Source: Ornithodoros turicata (taxonomy: Eukaryota; Arthropoda; Arachnida; Ixodida; Argasidae). From it: a stretch of 64,000 nucleotides of DNA. The position numbers were made by a program, and so were the translations under genes. Positions 3,736-62,218 of the stretch are shown here, one piece after another. The notes under the pieces are model-generated. The model ran no database searches and had not been told where the DNA came from. It saw only the letters and a list, made by a program, of their open reading frames with translations. Location of the stretch: assembly GCF_037126465.1 (NCBI RefSeq), contig NC_088203.1, positions 77,844,168 through 77,908,167 of the forward strand, written 5' to 3'. The number at the start of each line of letters is the position of its first letter. Positions within the stretch are counted from its first letter, which is position 1.

Positions 3736-3884
3736 TGACGTCACCACCCACTTTCTGCTTTACTCCGTTCACCCCACATTGTCCCTTACTCTCCACCTCC
3801 GAGTGCCACGTTCCTTTACCACAGTCTTTCGCCGCATGAGACTTAATGGGGCTTTTACACTGGCTTTCAAACATCTCCTCGGTG
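3736..3884 (+). pseudogene. Non-LTR ORF2 C-terminal fragment, left piece
   Basis: The frame reads HFLLYSVHPTL, then FRRMRLNGAFTLAFKHLLG. This aligns with the segment between RNase H and the C-terminal zinc knuckle of the better ORF2 copies in this window (FLRSIDPAVEF, then LLHRLRLNLAY). It stops at 3884, where a tRNA-like composite inserts. The frame resumes at 6236 after the duplicated target CATCTCCTCGGTG, giving KHLLG then VGASSLCSTC. It is 5'-truncated, and no earlier RT or endonuclease motif is visible upstream. This is a dead fragment of an RNase H-type (I-like) non-LTR retrotransposon. Confidence 0.7.
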
Positions 3885-3898
3885 AAAGATGAAAGGTT

Positions 3899-3971
3899 AG
3901 CCAGCTGTAGGACTCGAACCCACATCTTCTGGATTACCGGTCCATGGCTCTACCAATTGAGCTAAGCTAAC
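3899..3971 (-). tRNA. tRNA-like gene, Thr(GGT)-type, unit A
   Basis: A 73-nt cloverleaf can be drawn: acceptor GTTAGCT with AGCTGGC (two G-U pairs), D arm GCTC..GAGC, anticodon stem CTGGA/TCCAG (changed slightly here), variable loop AAGAT, and T arm GTGGG..CCTAC. A and B boxes are intact, and TTTT follows the 3' end as a Pol III stop. The anticodon would be GGT (Thr). Position 33 is C instead of the near-universal T, and GGT is not a usual eukaryotic Thr anticodon, so a SINE head or pseudo-tRNA is more likely than a working tRNA. Confidence 0.5.
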
Positions 3972-4236
3972 ACGCCTTCTCAGGGACTTCCAGGGTGCGT
4001 CATCTGAAGGGACAAACCAGTCACTCTCTCTCACTCATCCTCCTTTCACTCTTACATTTTTGCACAGTCATACACACATTCATACGACAGGGATCGACGC
4101 AAGCGGCAAATGTTGAACATGAGAGAACTGATGTTCTGAGGCTGGAACAACATAGAAGGGACAATCACATACAAGGCCTCAAGTTGCCTAAGAAATTAAC
4201 GATGAAAGATTAAAGATGAAAGTCACTGAAAAGGTT

Positions 4237-4309
4237 AGCCAGCTGTAGGACTCGAACCCACATCTTCTGGGTTACCGGTCCAGGGCTCTACCAATTGAGC
4301 TAAGCTAAC
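4237..4309 (-). tRNA. tRNA-like gene, Thr(GGT)-type, unit B
   Basis: Second tandem unit, 338 bases from unit A. It has the same cloverleaf, with an A-C mismatch at the base of the anticodon stem (39-43 reads CCCAG). TTTT follows the 3' end. It is probably a SINE-type head and not a functional tRNA. Confidence 0.5.
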
Positions 4310-4561
4310 ACGCCTTCTCAGCAACTTCCAGGGTGCGTCATCTGATGGGACAAACCAGTCACTCTCTCTCACTCATCCTCCTTTCACTCTTACATTTTTG
4401 CACACTCATACACACATTCATACGACGGGGATCGACGCAAGCGGCAAATGTTGAACATGAGAGAACTGATGTTCCTGAGGCTGGAACAACATAGAAGGGA
4501 CAATCACATACAAGGCCTCACGTTGCCTAAGAAATTAACGATGAAAGTCGCTGAAAAGGTT

Positions 4562-4634
4562 AGCCAGCTGTAGGACTCGAACCCACATCTTCTGGATTAC
4601 CGGTCCAGGGCTCTACCAATTGAGCTAAGCTAAC
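4562..4634 (-). tRNA. tRNA-like gene, Thr(GGT)-type, unit C
   Basis: Third tandem unit, 325 bases from unit B. All four stems pair, including a full CTGGA/TCCAG anticodon stem. C33 is present as in the other units. Its downstream spacer is interrupted by the hAT-like element starting at 4839. Confidence 0.5.
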
Positions 4635-4838
4635 ACGCCTTCTCAGCGACTTCCAGGGTGCGTCTTCTGAAGGGACAAACCAGTCTCTCTCTCTCACTCA
4701 TCCTCCTTTCACTCTTACATTTTTGCAGACTCATACACACATTCATACGACAGGGATCGACGCAAGCGGCAAATGTTGAACATGAGAGAACTGATATTCT
4801 GAGGCTGGAACAACATAGAAGGGACAATCACATACAAG

Positions 4839-5602
4839 CAGAGTTGTACGTAACGCGTTACTAGTAATTTCGTTACTAGTAATCAATTACTTTTTCAGTA
4901 ATTTTTTAACGTAATCAATTAATTTTGTGAGCAAGTCATTTTCCAAGTAATCTGATTGCAATTTTCGGTAATCAATTACTGAGTAATCGATTACTTTTTT
5001 AACCTTCTGTCAACAACGGCAACTCTTTTCGGCAAGCCAATCTGTTCTTCTGTTCCACCACGAGTTCGACTTTAGCAATGACGCAGAGGTCACTGTGACG
5101 TCCGTCTCTAGTCCACACGTGTTCCATGCACGCCTCAGTAATATGATGATCCCTTATACCGCGACCTACTGGAGCAACAGTAAAATTGGTGACTGTATTG
5201 ATAAATTGTGCCGGCTGAACATAACAATAGTAACAAAACGAAAGGGATGTTTCGACGCGGATGTTTCGATGTTGTTTTAAATGTGTATATAAATCTGTAA
5301 TAAACCCGTGTATGCGTTTTGTATGTTGCCTTCAAATGTATTTGTGAATGTCACTTATCATGTATGTTGGTGTCTCATATTAGAATTTGCAACAAGATCT
5401 GCATGGTTACATTCACTGCAGGCTTGTTGCCTTTGCTATGGTCCACAATTTAAAAGTAACAAGAAAAGTAACGCGTTACATTTTAATCGGTAACGTATTA
5501 CATTTTCGATGGAGTAATTTGTAACGGTAAAGAATTACTTTTCGCGCAGTAGTAACAGTAATTGTAATCAATTACTTTTTTCGAGTAACGTGTACAATTC
5601 TG
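4839..5602. mobile_element. Non-autonomous hAT-like element, CAGAGTTGTAC termini
   Basis: The termini are CAGAGTTGTACGTAACG and, inverted, CAGAATTGTACACGTTAC. They are flanked by a perfect 8-bp duplication, CATACAAG at 4831-4838 and 5603-5610. Both subterminal regions are packed with variants of GTAATCAATTAC on either strand. No transposase-like protein is visible in the 764 bp. The 8-bp duplication and CAGAG terminus fit the hAT superfamily. It sits inside the spacer of the tRNA-like array and so is younger than the array. Confidence 0.85.
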
Positions 5603-5664
5603 CATACAAGGCCTCAAGTTGCCTAAGAAATTAACGATGAAAGATGAAAGCTACTGAAAAGGTT

Positions 5665-5690
5665 AGCCAGCTGTAGGACTCGAACCCACA
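5665..5690 (-). pseudogene. 3' half of tRNA-like unit, left arm of inverted junction
   Basis: Only the acceptor 3' strand and the T arm are present (AGCCAGCTGTAGGACTCGAA on the plus strand). It abuts an oppositely oriented half-unit, forming a head-to-head fold-back with arms of roughly 85 bases (about 5605-5690 against 5706-5795). Confidence 0.7.
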
Positions 5691-5691
5691 C

Positions 5692-5743
5692 TAGAGCTGG
5701 ACCGGTAATCCAGAAGATGTGGGTTCGACTCCTACAGCTGGCT
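5692..5743 (+). pseudogene. 5'-truncated tRNA-like unit, right arm of inverted junction
   Basis: This begins inside the D arm (TAGAGC), lacks two bases before the anticodon stem, and continues through the T arm to the acceptor 3' end. Together with the minus-strand half it makes the fold-back centre of the array. The downstream sequence repeats the standard spacer. Confidence 0.7.
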
Positions 5744-6001
5744 AACCTTTTCAGTGACTTTCATCTTTCATCGTTAATTTCTTAGGCAACTTGAGGCCTT
5801 GTATGTGATTGTCCCTTCTATGTTGTTCCAGCCTCAGAACATCAGTTCTCTCATGTTCAACATTTGCCGCTTGCGTCGATCCCTGTCGTATGAATGTGTG
5901 TATGAGTGTGCAAAAATGTAAGAGTGAAAGGAGGGTGAGTGAGAGAGAGTGACTGGTTTGTCCCTTCAGATGACGCACCCTGGAAGTCGCTCAGAAGGCG
6001 T

Positions 6002-6074
6002 GTTAGCTTAGCTCAATTGGTAGAGTCCTGGACCGGTAATCCAGAAGATGTGGGCTCGAGTCCTACAGCTGGCT
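6002..6074 (+). tRNA. tRNA-like gene, Thr(GGT)-type, unit E
   Basis: Complete unit in the opposite orientation to A-C. Stems are acceptor GTTAGCT/AGCTGGC, a D arm ending GAGT, CTGGA/TCCAG, and GTGGG/CCTAC with a TTCGAG to CTCGAG change in the B box. TTTT follows. C33 is conserved. The same doubts about tRNA function apply as for unit A. Confidence 0.5.
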
Positions 6075-6222
6075 AACCTTTTCAGTGACTTTCATCTTAT
6101 TAATTAATTTAATTTTGTTAGGCATTTCTTAGGCATTAATTTCGTTAATTTCTTAGGCAACTTGAGGCCTTGTATGTGATTGTCCCTTCTATGTTGTTCC
6201 AGCCTCAGAACATCAGTTCTCT

Positions 6223-6399
6223 CATCTCCTCGGTGTCGGCGCATCCAGCCTCTGTTCCACGTGTGGTGTGTACGGTGACCTCCATTACGTCCTCCTGGTG
6301 TGCGGACAGTACGATCGTGAGCGTGCCATCATGAAAACTGCTCTGCAACGCCGCGTCGATCAACGCCAGTTCAGCTTGGCCAAAATCCTCGGGCAATAG
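6223..6399 (+). pseudogene. Non-LTR ORF2 C-terminal fragment, right piece (zinc knuckle)
   Basis: After the duplicated target the frame reads SSLCSTCGVYGDLHYVLLVC, then about 30 residues to a TAG at 6397-6399. The C-x2-C..H..C pattern and the ending LAKILGQ match the C-terminal knuckle of other ORF2 copies here (ALCDACEVVADTSHLLLTC, then LAALLGP). It continues the fragment at 3736-3884. No conserved 3' hairpin is obvious after the stop. Confidence 0.7.
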
Positions 6400-23665: not shown

Positions 23666-23777
23666 TTCCTCAATTAATTAATTAATTAACTAACTAATTA
23701 ATTAAACTAAATTTTAAACTAATAAAAAGAAACTAACAAAACTAATAAAAATTAATTAATTAAACCAGTGATCGATG

Positions 23778-23972
23778 AAAGATGAAAGTCACTGAAAAGA
23801 TTAGCCAGCTGTAGGACTCGAACCCACATCTTCTGGATTACCGATTCGAGTTCTACAGCTGGCTAACCTTTTCAGTGAGTTTCATCTTTCATCGTTAAGT
23901 TCTTAGGCAACTTGAGGCCTTGTATGTGATTGTCCCTTCTATGTTGTTCCAGCCTCAGAACATCAGTTCTCT
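23778..23972. mobile_element. tRNA-like fold-back element, single copy, 12-bp target duplication
   Basis: The insert starts AAAGATGAAAG and ends CATCAGTTCTCT, the same termini as the composite at 3885-6222. It is flanked by CAGTGATCGATG at 23766-23777 and 23973-23984. Inside, a minus-strand partial tRNA-like unit (about 23803-23842) meets a plus-strand partial unit (about 23843-23868) head to head. The common spacer then runs to the end. It is only 195 bp, so the long array at 3.9-6.2 kb is an expanded form. The right duplication supplies the ATG of the following ORF1. Confidence 0.75.
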
Positions 23973-23981
23973 CAGTGATCG

Positions 23982-24257
23982 ATGTTTATTGGAGCTTCAC
24001 TGCCCACACTCGTTACCTCAGTGTTACTGTACTTCGTTGATTTGTCGCAAGTGTTTTCGTTAACGAAGTTTCAACTTGCCGTTTCGGGCGACGTTGAGAG
24101 CAACCCGGGTCCCCCAAAGCAAGATCAGTCTAAACAGTTGGACACAATTTTGCAACTCTTGCATGAGCTTCATGATCGTTCTGGGGTGCTCGACACACGG
24201 ATTTCGACACTCGACCAGAAGCAGACTGAAGTTATGGAAGCAGTTCGCTCAATATAG
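23982..24257 (+). pseudogene. CR1/Jockey-like ORF1 N-terminus with 2A-type motif
   Basis: After a mildly hydrophobic start (LVTSVLLYFVDL), residues 35-44 read SGDVESNPGP. This matches the DxExNPGP consensus at which 2A peptides make the ribosome skip a bond before the last Pro. A coiled-coil-like segment follows (heptads through LDTRISTLDQKQTEVMEAV). A TAG at 24255-24257 interrupts it. The same frame continues beyond with NSISSRLEAVESKSARIDDL and RSRRNNLLFHGLP, the usual end of the coiled coil in this kind of ORF1. 2A-like sequences are established in several APE-type non-LTR retrotransposons. The ATG overlaps the duplicated target of the neighbouring tRNA-like element. Confidence 0.75.
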
Positions 24258-38405: not shown

Positions 38406-39604
38406 TTGCAGGGTTGTACAACTTAAATGAAGATTTATGTGGCCCACAAATCTTTCGCAGCTTGCTGCCGGTCCATTGTCTCCAGGCAGGCGCGTTAATA
38501 ATACTGATCAGCTAAACCACTGAGTGTAACCTCCTCTGAACCCATCTTTGATGTCTCTATTTAACATGTATTACCCTTAATATTCTCCTTTGCTCTCAGT
38601 GTCTTCTTTTCTAGCTGCTGAAAAAAAATAGATGAAAGCTGGCATCCTAGCACGGGACCATCTTTTTCCCTTTTGCCGATGAGTGACCGCGGTATCACTA
38701 GGAATCCTGGCCCGATATTGCCTTTTATCGTAGACGGCAGCCGAGTTGTTTATTACAGGCGTGGGAGCCCTATCTCTCGCAACCAGAGCCTCCTATCGCT
38801 CCTGCCACTAGGGTGCAGCTGCTCGATTTTGTTTCCAACTAGTCCTGAAACAGCAGCAGCACTATACAATAGATGTAGTGGAGGTCGGAACCAGGAACTT
38901 GGGATAGAAGGCACGCAATTGTACGATAAAGTGGAATAGATAGTGGATAGGAATTCGGTTATTTACGTTTTTCCTTTTCAGTTTTCGCGGACTGTATTTG
39001 AAGTCGGACTTGCGCGTATCTTGAGCACCCTACTCAAAGTAATGTGTTTTAAATACTTTTATTTGTATTTTAGCATCTTACGTATCCTAGAGTATCGCCC
39101 CTGGCGATGAAAGTCTTCATTCGGACATTCATCATCTCACAATAAGGTTGTTGTTGTTGTTTAGCATCTTAGTCAGTGCTTAGGGTGCATACTTTTTCAG
39201 TATTTTCTACTCTGTACGATAATTACTTTTGCCAGGCGACATGCCTGGCAAAGTTTGAGTTTGACCTGGTTTGAGTTTGAGTTTGAATATATATATATAT
39301 ATATATATAAAAGGAAGATATGCTGGTTTTATATAGACAGACCTGCGCGATTAGTAGTAAATAGAAGGCTTGTATGTATTGAGTTGAGAACTGTCTTTGT
39401 TCTGCTGCGCTCCTCGAGGTTTTTGATAACGCGATGAGCTTCGGTAGACAGAAATCAGAGACATAGGGCGTGATGCTTATAGAGATGGAGATATCGATAT
39501 AGTAATGCTTATTAGGTCCCATCCTAAAACATCAGCACGGATCATCTTTGATCGTATCCTCTAGGAGACGGATACGCCACAAAAGATACACGTGTCTTGA
39601 CATA
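38406..39604. other. No recognisable gene
   Basis: It contains (AT)n near 39284-39309 and a small hairpin TTTGCCAGGC/GCCTGGCAAA near 39227-39251. Reading frames lack motifs. Confidence 0.4.
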
Positions 39605-40484
39605 CAGGGTGTCCCAGAAAACGTGTCATTGAATTATAATAAAAAAAACTACACCACCTAGAGTCATGCGGTCAATGGCATTTGTTCTTACTGGGTTTTT
39701 GCCACCTCCTCATGTGAATGTCGTGTAACGTAAGTTTAATTATGTAAATTTTTGCGAACTTAAGTCGGAATTTTGCCTAGTGAAGGTCACTTTTTTACCC
39801 CACCAATGTGAAGAGCGTGTCTAATTTAGTCAAATTAATGATAATTGACAGGGATATTCAGGAGCTATCCCGTCGGAAAAAATAGCCGAACATCATGCTC
39901 TACGGAGGTCGCACAGAATAGCGCACGATGAATTTTTCAGCGCAATCTGTGTCAGTCCGACGAAAGGAGGTTTGAAACCCAGCCCTCCCCGACATCGCAG
40001 AAAGAGATAAAACAGGCACGGCTTATCACGTCCGACTTTCGCTGGGATAATGCTTTCCCTCTCCCAATTTTAGGAACTGTTACTTTTTCTTCTATCACTC
40101 TGTGGGCTGGCTTCGGAACCTCCTTTCGTCGCACTGAGAGGGATTGCGCTCAAAAAGTCATCGCGCGCTATGGTCCGGTGCTCCGAAAAGCATGATATTG
40201 GGCTATTTTTTTCCGATGGGATAGCTCGTGAATATCACTGTGAATTATCATGAATTTGAGTGAATTCGGCACGCTCTTCATATTGGTGGGGTAAAAAAGC
40301 GACCTTTACTTGGCAAATTTCCGAGTTGAGTTCGCAAATATTTACATAATTAAACTTGGAGTACATGCCATTCACATTAGGAGGTGCCAAAAACCTAATA
40401 ATAAGAAATGCTCTTTACCGCATGATTCTAGGTGACGTAGTTTTTTTTATTATAATTCAATGACACGTTTTCTGGGACACCCTG
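39605..40484. mobile_element. Mariner-type fold-back MITE (880 bp)
   Basis: The ends are CAGGGTGTCCCAGAAAACGT and its inverse, flanked by TA on both sides (39603-39604 and 40485-40486). Inverted arms of about 300 bases on each side enclose a roughly 280-bp centre. The TA duplication and CAGGGTGTCC terminus fit Tc1/mariner. No transposase. A deleted relative lies at 60989-61433. Confidence 0.85.
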
Positions 40485-40486
40485 TA

Positions 40487-41330
40487 TACATAAACACAGT
40501 GTTAGAAGACTTCAGCTTGACTATGATAGATTTGCTTGGTTCATGGTCAAACCCCGCCCACCAACACTCTCCTCTTCAAGCTCAGCTAACCGTTTTTGGA
40601 CAACATAGGACTTCACCGTGAGGTTCATCAGCCGAATGACCGCGAGCAATGGCGTATAGAAGTACCGCCTTTGACGATGAAACGCCCTGATAATTAACAC
40701 TAAAATAAAGTAGTTGTTCTTGTTGCTATCGTTGACTTGAGCTTTTAAGCAACCATCAAGAACCTGTCACTGTCGCTCTGTGTCGTTTCTCCGCAACTGT
40801 GCTTCACGAAACGGCAAGCATGTTGCGCGACTTGGTTACAAACTGCCAAGTCACTGTTAAAGAAGCGATGTGAGGTAACGTCGTTACGCTCTACTCTGCG
40901 ACCACGTTCTTTTTCGATGAAATTACCGCGATGTTCCTTTTACTTCCGCTTTGTCGTAAAACGCTGCACCAGAGATAAGAAGCGACGTGCGCGGCTCTCA
41001 AGGGCTTTCAGCGTTATCGTCTGTGTTTCCTGCCTTCTTCCCCAGCATTGTCGCTTTTTTAGCCTCCTGAGTGAAAGGACCTCGACATTAAATTATCCGT
41101 GAAAGCATGCATCAAAGTGTGGCAGCCACCTCTGCTGCAATCTGACGTTCTCGGAAGCCATGTCGTCGACGACGACATCCAACGCAATTTAGAGCGGTGA
41201 AAAACGTGTCTTGCTGCAGGGCGGTACAGGAGGTCAACTGCAAATATAACCGGCGTATGTAAGAAAAGGTTGGAGTAGAGAAGTTAAAAGGTGGGTTGTA
41301 CGGAACGTTGCTTGAGTGATACGCTCTTAA
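40487..41330. other. No recognisable gene
   Basis: Nothing supported. A TTTGACGATGAAACGCCC stretch near 40672 is a faint match to the short repeat near 31672. Confidence 0.4.
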
Positions 41331-42090: not shown

Positions 42091-43130
42091 CAGGGTGTTT
42101 CTTTTTACCTGCAACGAATTTTCATACAAAGAGGTGTTGCCTTAGGACGCTTTTATTTTTGTCATTGGATGATTTGACGGGAACTACTACGGGAATTACT
42201 AGGAAACCGTATTTTTTCTCAATTAGGCGACTAATTAACAGAGGTATTTTAATCAACTTTTAAATTTTTGACTTTAGGGAGCACATTGCATTTGCGATAT
42301 TAAAGTCTGATGTCCGCATGATTTGCTCAAGGCACTGATGAAACCCAAAAGTAATCACAGCGCGCGCTACGGACCGCTTGTATTGTATTTGACCGCTGTC
42401 GGCTACTGTAAACCGCAAGTGGTCGACAAAAGAGCTTCAGCGACGGGGATATCTCCGCCCTTACTTAACGTCACAGAAGAACGTCGTACGCGATGTAGAG
42501 AACCCTTATCGCTGTATGTTTCACGATTTCTGTTTTGTATTTCTTTTTGCCTTTCCTTTCTTCATTCAAGTGTTCGGAATCGCTAGCCGTATCACTTCTT
42601 TCATTCTACTGGGCACGGCTCTCACGCTTCCCTGGTGCGATAAGCGCATATATGTAGCGGTGATGCACAAAGCTCCTTGCAAACAAAAAATAAAACAAGA
42701 AAACAAAGGTTGTGAAACATATACCTCGAAAAGGGTTTGCTGACTTGCGTGTGACGTCTTTCTGTGACGTTAAGTGAGGGCGGAGATATCGACGTCACTG
42801 TCGCTCGTTTGCAGATTACTTGCTGTACACAGCAGACGACGGAAGTAAAATACTTAGGTCTGTAGCGCGCGCTGTGATTACTTTTGTGCTTCATCAGTGG
42901 TTCGAGCGCATCATGTTGAGATCAGGCTTTAATATCGCAACGGCACTGCGCTCCCTAAAGTCAATATTTAAAAAGTTGATTAAAATATCTCCGTTAATTA
43001 GCCTTTTATTGAGAAAAAATACAGTTTCCTAGTAGGAGCCCCGTCGACTAATCCAATGACAAAAGTAAAAGCGTCCTAAGTCAACTCCCCTTTTTATGAA
43101 ACTGTGTTGCAGCTGAAAAGAAACACCCTG
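42091..43130. mobile_element. Mariner-type fold-back MITE (1040 bp)
   Basis: CAGGGTGTTTCTTTT and its inverse AAAAGAAACACCCTG are flanked by TA (42089-42090, 43131-43132). The arms are very long: AGTAATCACAGCGCGCGCTA near 42350 reappears inverted near 42868. Open frames at 42323-42586 (+) and 42622-42894 (-) encode nearly the same peptide only because the arms are inverted copies. No transposase. Confidence 0.82.
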
Positions 43131-60270: not shown

Positions 60271-60988
60271 TGACATCAGATTCTGGTTCTTCGATTTGAC
60301 AGCTTCCTATATTGTGTCGTTTTTGCAGTGTGATTCCGATATGGTAAAACTCCCTGTTACTTTCCTTCGGAACAAATTGTGCACAAACCGAATGTGATGA
60401 CCTAAGTGTTCGTGCTTGTGGAGAGTACTTGTATCTTAAAAAGGTTGTAGAACAACTCGCCCACATTTGGGGAATCATGTTGATGATGCGGGGATTTTAC
60501 CCTGAACGAAGCAAAATCCCACGGCGATGCGATCCAGCGTCGGGAAGTTATTGCACACCGAAAAATTTGGCATTGAGAAAGAGGCCGCTTTCACTCTCTC
60601 TCGCGCGCGCTCTCTCTCTTTCTCTCTATCTTTCTCCACCAATACTGTACGAAACGACGTGCGCGCCTCGATGGCGCGAGGCATACCTGTTCCCATGGTA
60701 ACTGTCTGCTACTCCGCGGGAAAATTCCTCGTTTGGCGTCGCGCTCTATCCATTTTTTTATTCACGTTGTCATAAAAGCAGCGTGCTCCAAAGACAAGTG
60801 AGGTTTTGTCTATATTGAATATACGGTCTTTTGCAAAGAGTGCATTAACCACATGCATTAGAACATGGTTTCCGTACCCTTTCACATCCTCTGAAAAATT
60901 TACGGCAGGTTCTCATACTAACGCTCTCCCCCTTGCACGTACAAGGTTATTGTATATATATCTATAATATGTATATACTAATAATATA
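60271..60988. other. No recognisable gene
   Basis: A (CT)n-rich tract at 60590-60640. Otherwise nothing supported. Confidence 0.4.
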
Positions 60989-61433
60989 CAGGGTGTCCCA
61001 GAAAACGTGTCATTGAATTATAATAAAAAAACTACGCCACCTAGAATCATGCGGTAAAGAGCATTTCTTATTATTAGGTTTTTGTCACCTCCTAATGTGA
61101 ATGGCATGTACTCCAAGTTTAATTATGTAACCTCCGTAGAGTATGATGTTCGGCTATTTTTTCCGATGGGGTAGCTTCTGAATATCCCTGTCAATTACCA
61201 CTAATTTGACCAAATTAGACACGCTCTTCACATTGGTGGGGCAAAAAAGTGACCTTTACTAGGCAAATTTCCGACTTAAGCTCGCAAAAATTTACATAAT
61301 TAAATTTACGTTACACAACATTCACACGAGGAGGTGGCAAAAACCCAGTAAGAACAAATGCCATTGACCGCATGACTCTAGGTGGTGTAGTTTTTTTATT
61401 ATAATTCAATGACGCGTTTTCTGGGACACCCTG
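60989..61433. mobile_element. Mariner-type MITE (445 bp), deleted relative of 39605-40484
   Basis: CAGGGTGTCCCAGAAAACGT ends with TA flanks (60987-60988, 61434-61435). One arm is shortened, so the junction near 61130 jumps from outer arm to inner sequence. Non-coding. Confidence 0.85.
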
Positions 61434-61435
61434 TA

Positions 61436-62218
61436 TACATAATATATACCGCTTGCGCCCGAAATGGCGCTACGCTCGACTTGGCAACTTCGCTGCAACA
61501 GCCGCGTACAAAGCACATTGACACCGATCACGCGGTAACTGCATGCAACCAGTAGACGTGATATCTCAGAAAATTTATCTGTTCGGTCGCTTCAGCCCTC
61601 ACTACACTTACGTCACAATTTTCGTGCTAATTGCACTCGTAGTTTTTTTTAGAAAATAAAAATTGAAAACTGCGGGCAACACTGTGCCGAAGGTACCGCC
61701 AACTTCGCATTGGTCGTCAAGTACGGCGGTAAAACTGCATTGCATGCGCATAACACTGTGTCTAACACAAGTCGGCTACGTGTCGGCTACATAGCCATCA
61801 GGAGGGACACATCATTCTCGGACACAGAGACCACTGTTGCTCGACGAAGTCGGGGATATTGCCAGAAGAAGTCGGTCCGAGCCCTTCTACCGCAATTTTG
61901 CTAGCAAGTTAAAAATATCGAGAGCGTTCGGTCACATGCATACCTAAAGAAAATTTATTACATTAACCTGATGATATCTGCAGTGCAAGCAGTGCATACC
62001 TTGCTGCACTGGGTTTGCAGGGAACAAACTGCCTACCTGCTGCTTTGCGGTAGCTTCAAACCGATCTTCCTTTCAAAATTGTAATAATAATATGAAGACG
62101 ACCGGCACTTCTTGACAATGCATCGTAAGAGGCTGCGGCATCCGACTGCATGCCATTGACGATAATGCTCTTCAAATTTAACATCTCAATCTAAATCAAT
62201 TAGGCACGGCGCTGAACT
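61436..62218. other. No recognisable gene; one dispersed repeat
   Basis: The stretch 61946-61995 repeats 55747-55800. No coding region. Confidence 0.4.

Follow-up and report, generated by a model that had tools for sequence, protein, structure and literature searches.

A tRNA-headed fold-back SINE of the tick Ornithodoros turicata and its probable copying from both ends of the cut target

How does a tRNA-like element come to lie in a genome folded back on itself, with the same two outer ends in inserts of very different length? The question is raised by a window of 64,000 nucleotides of Ornithodoros turicata (contig NC_088203.1; C3:77844168-77908167 in the genome examined here, which holds 1.07 Gb in 379 contigs). 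Two inserts in this window begin with AAAGATGAAAG and end with CATCAGTTCTCT, lie between perfect repeats of 13 and 12 bp, respectively, and contain a head-to-head junction within the tRNA-like part (Table 1). These features had been noticed in a preliminary description of the window, and both the coordinates and the common plan were found again. Genomic copies now suggest, with a probability of about 0.8, that this non-autonomous, tRNA-headed retroelement, a short interspersed element (SINE) by anatomy, is integrated through two-ended target-primed reverse transcription that begins at two fixed positions inside its RNA. To our knowledge, no other SINE is copied from both ends. Titles and abstract openings in the open-access literature describe no SINE inserted in this way, which is not proof of absence. 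Two-ended priming would add a new mode of SINE integration.

Fold-back plan and its copies in the genome

In the long insert, Rfam gives four tRNA matches (51.7-58.1 bits), and ARAGORN reports the same four and an extra one at the inverted junction (5664-5743). Arm A holds three tRNA-bearing units and a partial fourth, split by a later miniature inverted-repeat transposable element (MITE), and arm B a partial unit and one further unit. The measured unit spacing of 338 and 325 agrees with the tandem units of about 325-338 bases described before. The MITE, with termini CAGARTTGTAC and presumably of the hAT type, had been overlooked; because it accounts for 764 bp, the tRNA-unit part of the long insert comes to about 1.57 kb. 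The long insert interrupts ORF2 of a long interspersed element (LINE), and when its flanks are joined the frame is open across the join, as had been claimed. For a LINE ORF of the window, the best relatives that carry a species name belong to Rhipicephalus pulchellus and Ornithodoros turicata. In the short insert the arms meet at about 23844, again in the tRNA-like part.

The 24-base right terminus of the family occurs exactly 2505 times in the genome and 0 times in the control. Eighty loci and the two window inserts were mapped onto a 331-base tandem reference unit composed of a 5' part (1-150), a tRNA part (151-226) and a tail (227-331). Thirty loci (L002-L031) form a similarity sample, for which 40 of 2300 candidates were scored. 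Another 50 were taken by exact pattern in contig order from the beginning of contig C1 (L032-L061 and the 20 stretches L062-L081); this sample is unselected for inversion, but is confined to one end of a single contig.

The usual copy is a head-to-head fold-back with outer ends near unit 252 (GAAAGATG) and unit 331 (CATCAGTTCTCT). With the 331 end oriented to the right, BLAST detects an antisense left arm in 54 of 71 clusters, among them the two window inserts and two segmental duplicates. In 47 of the 54 this arm begins within unit 245-273; L047 has one left arm starting near 331. In a stricter test the right end was fixed at 331 and GAAAGATG was sought beside a duplication. A duplication touches both termini in 48/69 rows, against 2/150 swapped pairings as the null (31/44 in the contig-order sample, 15/23 in the similarity sample). 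Left out of this count were nine overlapping loci (L026, L030, L031, L039, L048, L050, L052, L055 and L058), the window's own locus L003, the segmental duplicates L064 and L065, and 14 clusters short of 331. The complex locus L047 supplies two of the 48 passing rows, and two rows of one insertion in the tables of microhomology, right-terminus bases and inner junctions. The duplications measure 11-13 bp in 41 of the 48, and the passing inserts range from 37 bp (L079) to 2.3 kb. The proposed mobile family with common ends and a fold-back plan is thus borne out by the genome copies, and a search with its ends did not turn up copies with generally unrelated termini.

The possibility that segmental duplication had produced the flanking repeats applies to one case; the duplications at the remaining loci all differ. 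In that case, L063, L064 and L065 (C1:4.98, 5.00 and 5.03 Mb), one fold-back insertion with its duplication is found in three places about 25 kb apart, which is a segmental duplication. In addition, the arm A tRNA parts of L060 and L069 are interrupted at an identical spot by similar inverted-repeat insertions of about 240 bp.

Six of the 13 contig-order failures are fold-backs by BLAST (L034, L056 twice, L066, L071 and L081), with duplications of 13 bp at L066 and 9 bp at one L056 copy; the other seven are without a fold-back (L033, L035, L046, L053, L054, L067 and L074). Among the eight failures of the similarity sample, L005 and L019 have duplications (11 and 13 bp) but no GAAAGATG word, the duplication of L013 is short and mutated, a 10-bp repeat lies at a distance in L017, and L029 is a tandem array. 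No duplication was found in the other three, of which L002 is a fold-back and L011 and L016 are direct. Two of the clusters short of 331, L045 and L073, are fold-backs by eye, with a 331 arm of only about 14-16 bases.

Candidate priming sites, template and alternatives

The following order of events is proposed. An endonuclease would make a staggered cut at AAM|, the two nicks lying about 11-13 bases apart, and the 3' end of each target strand would anneal by a few bases to an internal site of a multi-unit sense RNA, at unit ~252-265 for one strand and unit ~331-340 for the other. Each target end would prime its own cDNA; both cDNAs would stop variably, often in the tRNA-like part, and would then be joined head to head. 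Most sampled copies would fold back because they were copied from both cut ends at once.

The bases at the termini can be compared with these steps. At the nick flank (n=47), A is found at position -3 in 34/47 and at -2 in 39/47, and C or A at -1 in 35/47. Between unit 331 and the duplication lies a gap of 0-8 bases, with at least one base in 37/47 rows; in 27 of these 37 rows the bases past 331 are identical to those with which the next unit begins, and in 8 of the other 10 they are CT, CTT or CTTG. The left terminus likewise shows extra bases beyond 252 (CGATG, TTAACGATG) in varying number, and therefore the RNA continued past both sites. A small hairpin, GAACAU/AUGUUC, spans unit 331. Short matches between target and RNA exceed expectation at both ends. 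At the left end the mean run is 1.55, against a corrected null of 0.67 and a maximum of 1.13 in 3000 simulations. At the right end it is 1.66 against 0.42 for shuffled data, where the null is uncorrected; the first test was inflated by chance extension of the duplications, and the corrected null was applied at the left end only. The left start of L005 lies at unit ~59, where the target matches CACACYCA.

The best-surviving alternative, though improbable, is that LINEs insert this SINE in the ordinary way, with twin priming of the L1 type at internal sites hit at random, and that the fold-backs seen here are a sampling accident. The chemistry would be equal, since twin priming also gives two cDNAs from both nicks of one target that are joined head to head, with 5' inversion, duplications of 10-15 bp and short matches at the priming site, and a few plain 5'-truncated copies do exist. 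Inserts of the zebrafish LINE Nimb-2_DR are described with duplications of about 12 bp and, once, a 5' inversion (PMC4245944). Nevertheless, twin priming in humans is given as 0.02% of germline Alu and 18-22% of L1 insertions (PMC12016303), compared with the 31 of 44 unselected rows here, and the internal site is nearly fixed instead of spread. The SINE differs from L1 twin priming in its fixed second site and in the majority frequency of the fold-back, and in that a SINE is concerned; an L1-type poly(A) 3' end is absent, CATCAGTTCTCT ending the window inserts and the listed copies.

A template switch to an antisense RNA with a fixed 5' end at unit 252 is slightly less probable still. It would explain why the start of arm A is nearly fixed, and for Penelope elements antisense templates have been suggested (PMC3846280). 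However, the varying number of bases beyond 252, where the target end matches the template, and the start of L005 within the unit argue against a fixed RNA end.

Arms that cross the 331/1 boundary are frequent among the mapped copies, and exact 40-base tandem joints number 175 in the genome; therefore the RNA held several units, and the template, taken here as a tandem transcript, may also have been circular or a read-through product. The multimeric templates considered in the preliminary description thereby gain support. An array at about C1:131072516-131078337 runs in one direction through some 17 units, starting at unit 252 and cut short within the tRNA part, and no duplication was seen there. 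Across the genome, exact unit-252 sites run on into the next 8 unit bases in 1862 of 9266 cases; the remainder is a mixture of sites that may end at 252 and sites that may have mutated. Head-to-tail arrays with a spacing of 318-331 bases were also observed at C1:99632562-99636504 and C5:41481958-41484314.

The inner junctions differ from copy to copy: the 42 copies measured show 42 different border pairs, some of them rough, as alignment extension ended early in several rows. At least one border falls within unit 140-231, around the tRNA part, in 32/42. This diversity, and the range of insert lengths, disfavour a hairpin master, that is, one fold-back element transcribed and copied whole, from which ends and fold-back would be inherited. 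Such a master would account for the fixed ends of most copies and for the similar junctions near unit 264-296 in several of them, but is very improbable. Palindromes at the inner junctions show no excess. The junctions carry small fillers or overlaps without excess microhomology, and therefore suggest that they may have formed through end joining. The RNA fold of 5724-5900 is unremarkable (z 0.29).

Opposite arms of one element agree at 446/488 comparisons (0.91; 17 polymorphic sites, pairs counted twice), whereas the agreement between elements at these sites is 0.59 and the highest of 300 shuffles reaches 0.71. Tandem arrays, the long window insert, L046, L047 and the segmental duplicates were left out of this test. 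The templates of the two arms were therefore a single RNA or RNAs with a common source. Variants common to the head-to-head arms are also what a cDNA snap-back predicts, in which the first cDNA serves as the template for the second arm, but arm A holds unit positions absent from arm B in the short window insert, L010, L032, L078 and L079, and in 31/42 copies by a mechanical rule, so that one arm is not a copy of the other, and the fixed outer end of arm A is not predicted either; this explanation is the least probable of all, and the strand switching by reverse transcriptase suggested earlier is likewise not supported.

Several observations weigh against two-ended priming. L033 and L067 are plain copies, truncated on the 5' side and with duplications at the direct end, and L011 and L016 are direct copies in which no duplication was found. 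In L004 and L020 the only terminus is the one at unit 252 and no second arm is visible; the former has a 9-bp duplication and the latter none. Microhomology at the inner junctions shows no excess (0.40 vs 0.65). In addition, the start sites used by a Penelope protein in vitro are described as lacking homology to the cut DNA (PMC11167929), whereas weak homology is seen here.

Candidate enzyme and relation to known systems

Among the possible mobilising enzymes, a Penelope-like reverse transcriptase ranks as the likeliest, at somewhat under even odds, and an APE-type LINE comes next as a weaker candidate. The family may, tentatively, be the first SINE family moved by a Penelope-like reverse transcriptase, its fold-back arising from the mechanism and not from inheritance. 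If so, the short copies would document base by base how Penelope elements build head-to-head inserts. More generally, some enzyme in this tick, of Penelope type or LINE type, would have two-ended target priming as its usual mode. The thousands of short copies would form a base-level record of both priming sites, the cut and the joining, and from sequence one could test the second half of retrotransposition as well as how head-to-head Penelope inserts arise.

The Penelope protein of Anolis cuts and extends both strands in vitro and uses two adjacent internal RNA start sites, which are held to explain the tail (PMC11167929). In rotifers, Penelope copies are described whose pLTRs stand head to head, whose duplications measure 8-10 bp and which may bear a 31-bp tail; they are also said to have moved a host gene in trans (PMC3846280). 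In the tick genome, 150 places were scored of 3506 candidates in a GIY-YIG search, and neighbours at most 10 kb apart among those scored stand minus-then-plus in 34 cases and plus-then-minus in 1. Two Penelope-like element (PLE) copies, L083 and L084, were read across both ends; each is a head-to-head pair inside (TA)n in which a single arm bears a tail of about 38 bases.

The SINE resembles PLEs in its head-to-head arms with tandem or partial-tandem units, two internal initiation sites, the extra tail on one arm and the short duplications. It differs in having no ORF, in a tail of about 79 bases compared with about 38 in L083 and L084, and in its AAM| target, with 0/47 rows in (TA)n. Its sequence gave no match to L083, L084 or the piece L085 (best E 0.48-1.3), and Rfam gave no hammerhead on the long insert up to E 10. 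The hammerhead core motif was not detected in the unit by a regular expression that also missed L083 and L084. Loosely defined motifs identified no Penelope-like ORF in the window and the loci examined with it. Membership among PLEs is not established, because no sequence shared with these copies and no hammerhead was found and the targets are not TA; in plan, the SINE appears to work like a Penelope element, the closest known system, and a LINE partner is possible as well. Separately, L085 (C2:34578200-34579200, about 463-795 of the reverse strand) is a short fold-back that lacks an ORF, is bordered by (TA)n stretches and has two hammerhead-like cores, one per orientation; it resembles a miniature Penelope element.

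With tRNA-derived SINEs (SINE2) the family shares a tRNA-like head, a short non-coding unit, thousands of copies and target duplications; it differs in that priming from both ends is usual, from two internal start sites, and in that no poly(A) or LINE-like tail was identified. Two LINE 3' ends in the window, judged by eye, are unlike its tail. Within 310,041 masked bases the best match to the unit (E 0.004) adjoins a copy, and the sole match to the tail (E 0.004) lies beside a copy, no genome-wide search having been made for the tail. Ruka, a SINE of ixodid ticks, is tRNA-related and abundant, with one copy of 195 bp, and is called serine-tRNA-like (PMC3160391), whereas the SINE here scores as Thr; the two are set apart by description only. 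Animal retrozymes consist of small non-coding tandem units and are termed SINE-like (PMC7761336); they carry hammerhead ribozymes, of which none was found in the SINE unit. Relatives outside the genome were found neither in viral contigs nor in plasmids; a phage search returned tRNA-Asn matches only, and an archaeal search a single 19-mer match, by chance. For one 79-residue frame of the unit no candidate protein was found.

Coordinates and other features of the window

Table 1. Parts of the two SINE inserts and of the MITE, in positions of the window
Feature	Position	Strand	Description
Long insert	3885-6222		2338 bp, between perfect 13-bp repeats CATCTCCTCGGTG
Left target-site duplication, long insert	3872..3884	.	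CATCTCCTCGGTG
Arm A, long insert	3885..5690	-	antisense; outer end AAAGATGAAAG (unit ~252)
tRNA-like part, arm A	3899..3971	-	Rfam and ARAGORN; ARAGORN tRNA-Thr(ggt)
tRNA-like part, arm A	4237..4309	-	Rfam and ARAGORN
tRNA-like part, arm A	4562..4634	-	Rfam and ARAGORN
Left 8-bp duplication, MITE	4831..4838	.	CATACAAG
hAT-like MITE (presumed type)	4839..5602	.	764 bp; later insertion into arm A, not SINE
Right 8-bp duplication, MITE	5603..5610	.	CATACAAG
Head-to-head A/B junction, long insert	5685..5697 (about 5690)	.	within tRNA-like part
Arm B, long insert	5691..6222	+	sense; outer end CATCAGTTCTCT (unit 331)
tRNA-like part, arm B	6002..6074	+	Rfam and ARAGORN
Right target-site duplication, long insert	6223..6235	.	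CATCTCCTCGGTG
Short insert	23778-23972		195 bp, between perfect 12-bp repeats CAGTGATCGATG
Left target-site duplication, short insert	23766..23777	.	CAGTGATCGATG
Arm A, short insert	23778..23843	-	unit ~252 back to ~183
Arm B, short insert	23844..23972	+	unit ~204 to 331
Right target-site duplication, short insert	23973..23984	.	CAGTGATCGATG

Adjoining the short insert, an open frame at 24012-24245 contains GDVESNPGP, which we take to be a 2A-like motif, and reverse-transcriptase ORFs follow downstream. Long inverted-repeat pairs at 39602-40487, 42231-43001 and 60985-61437 are probably MITEs.

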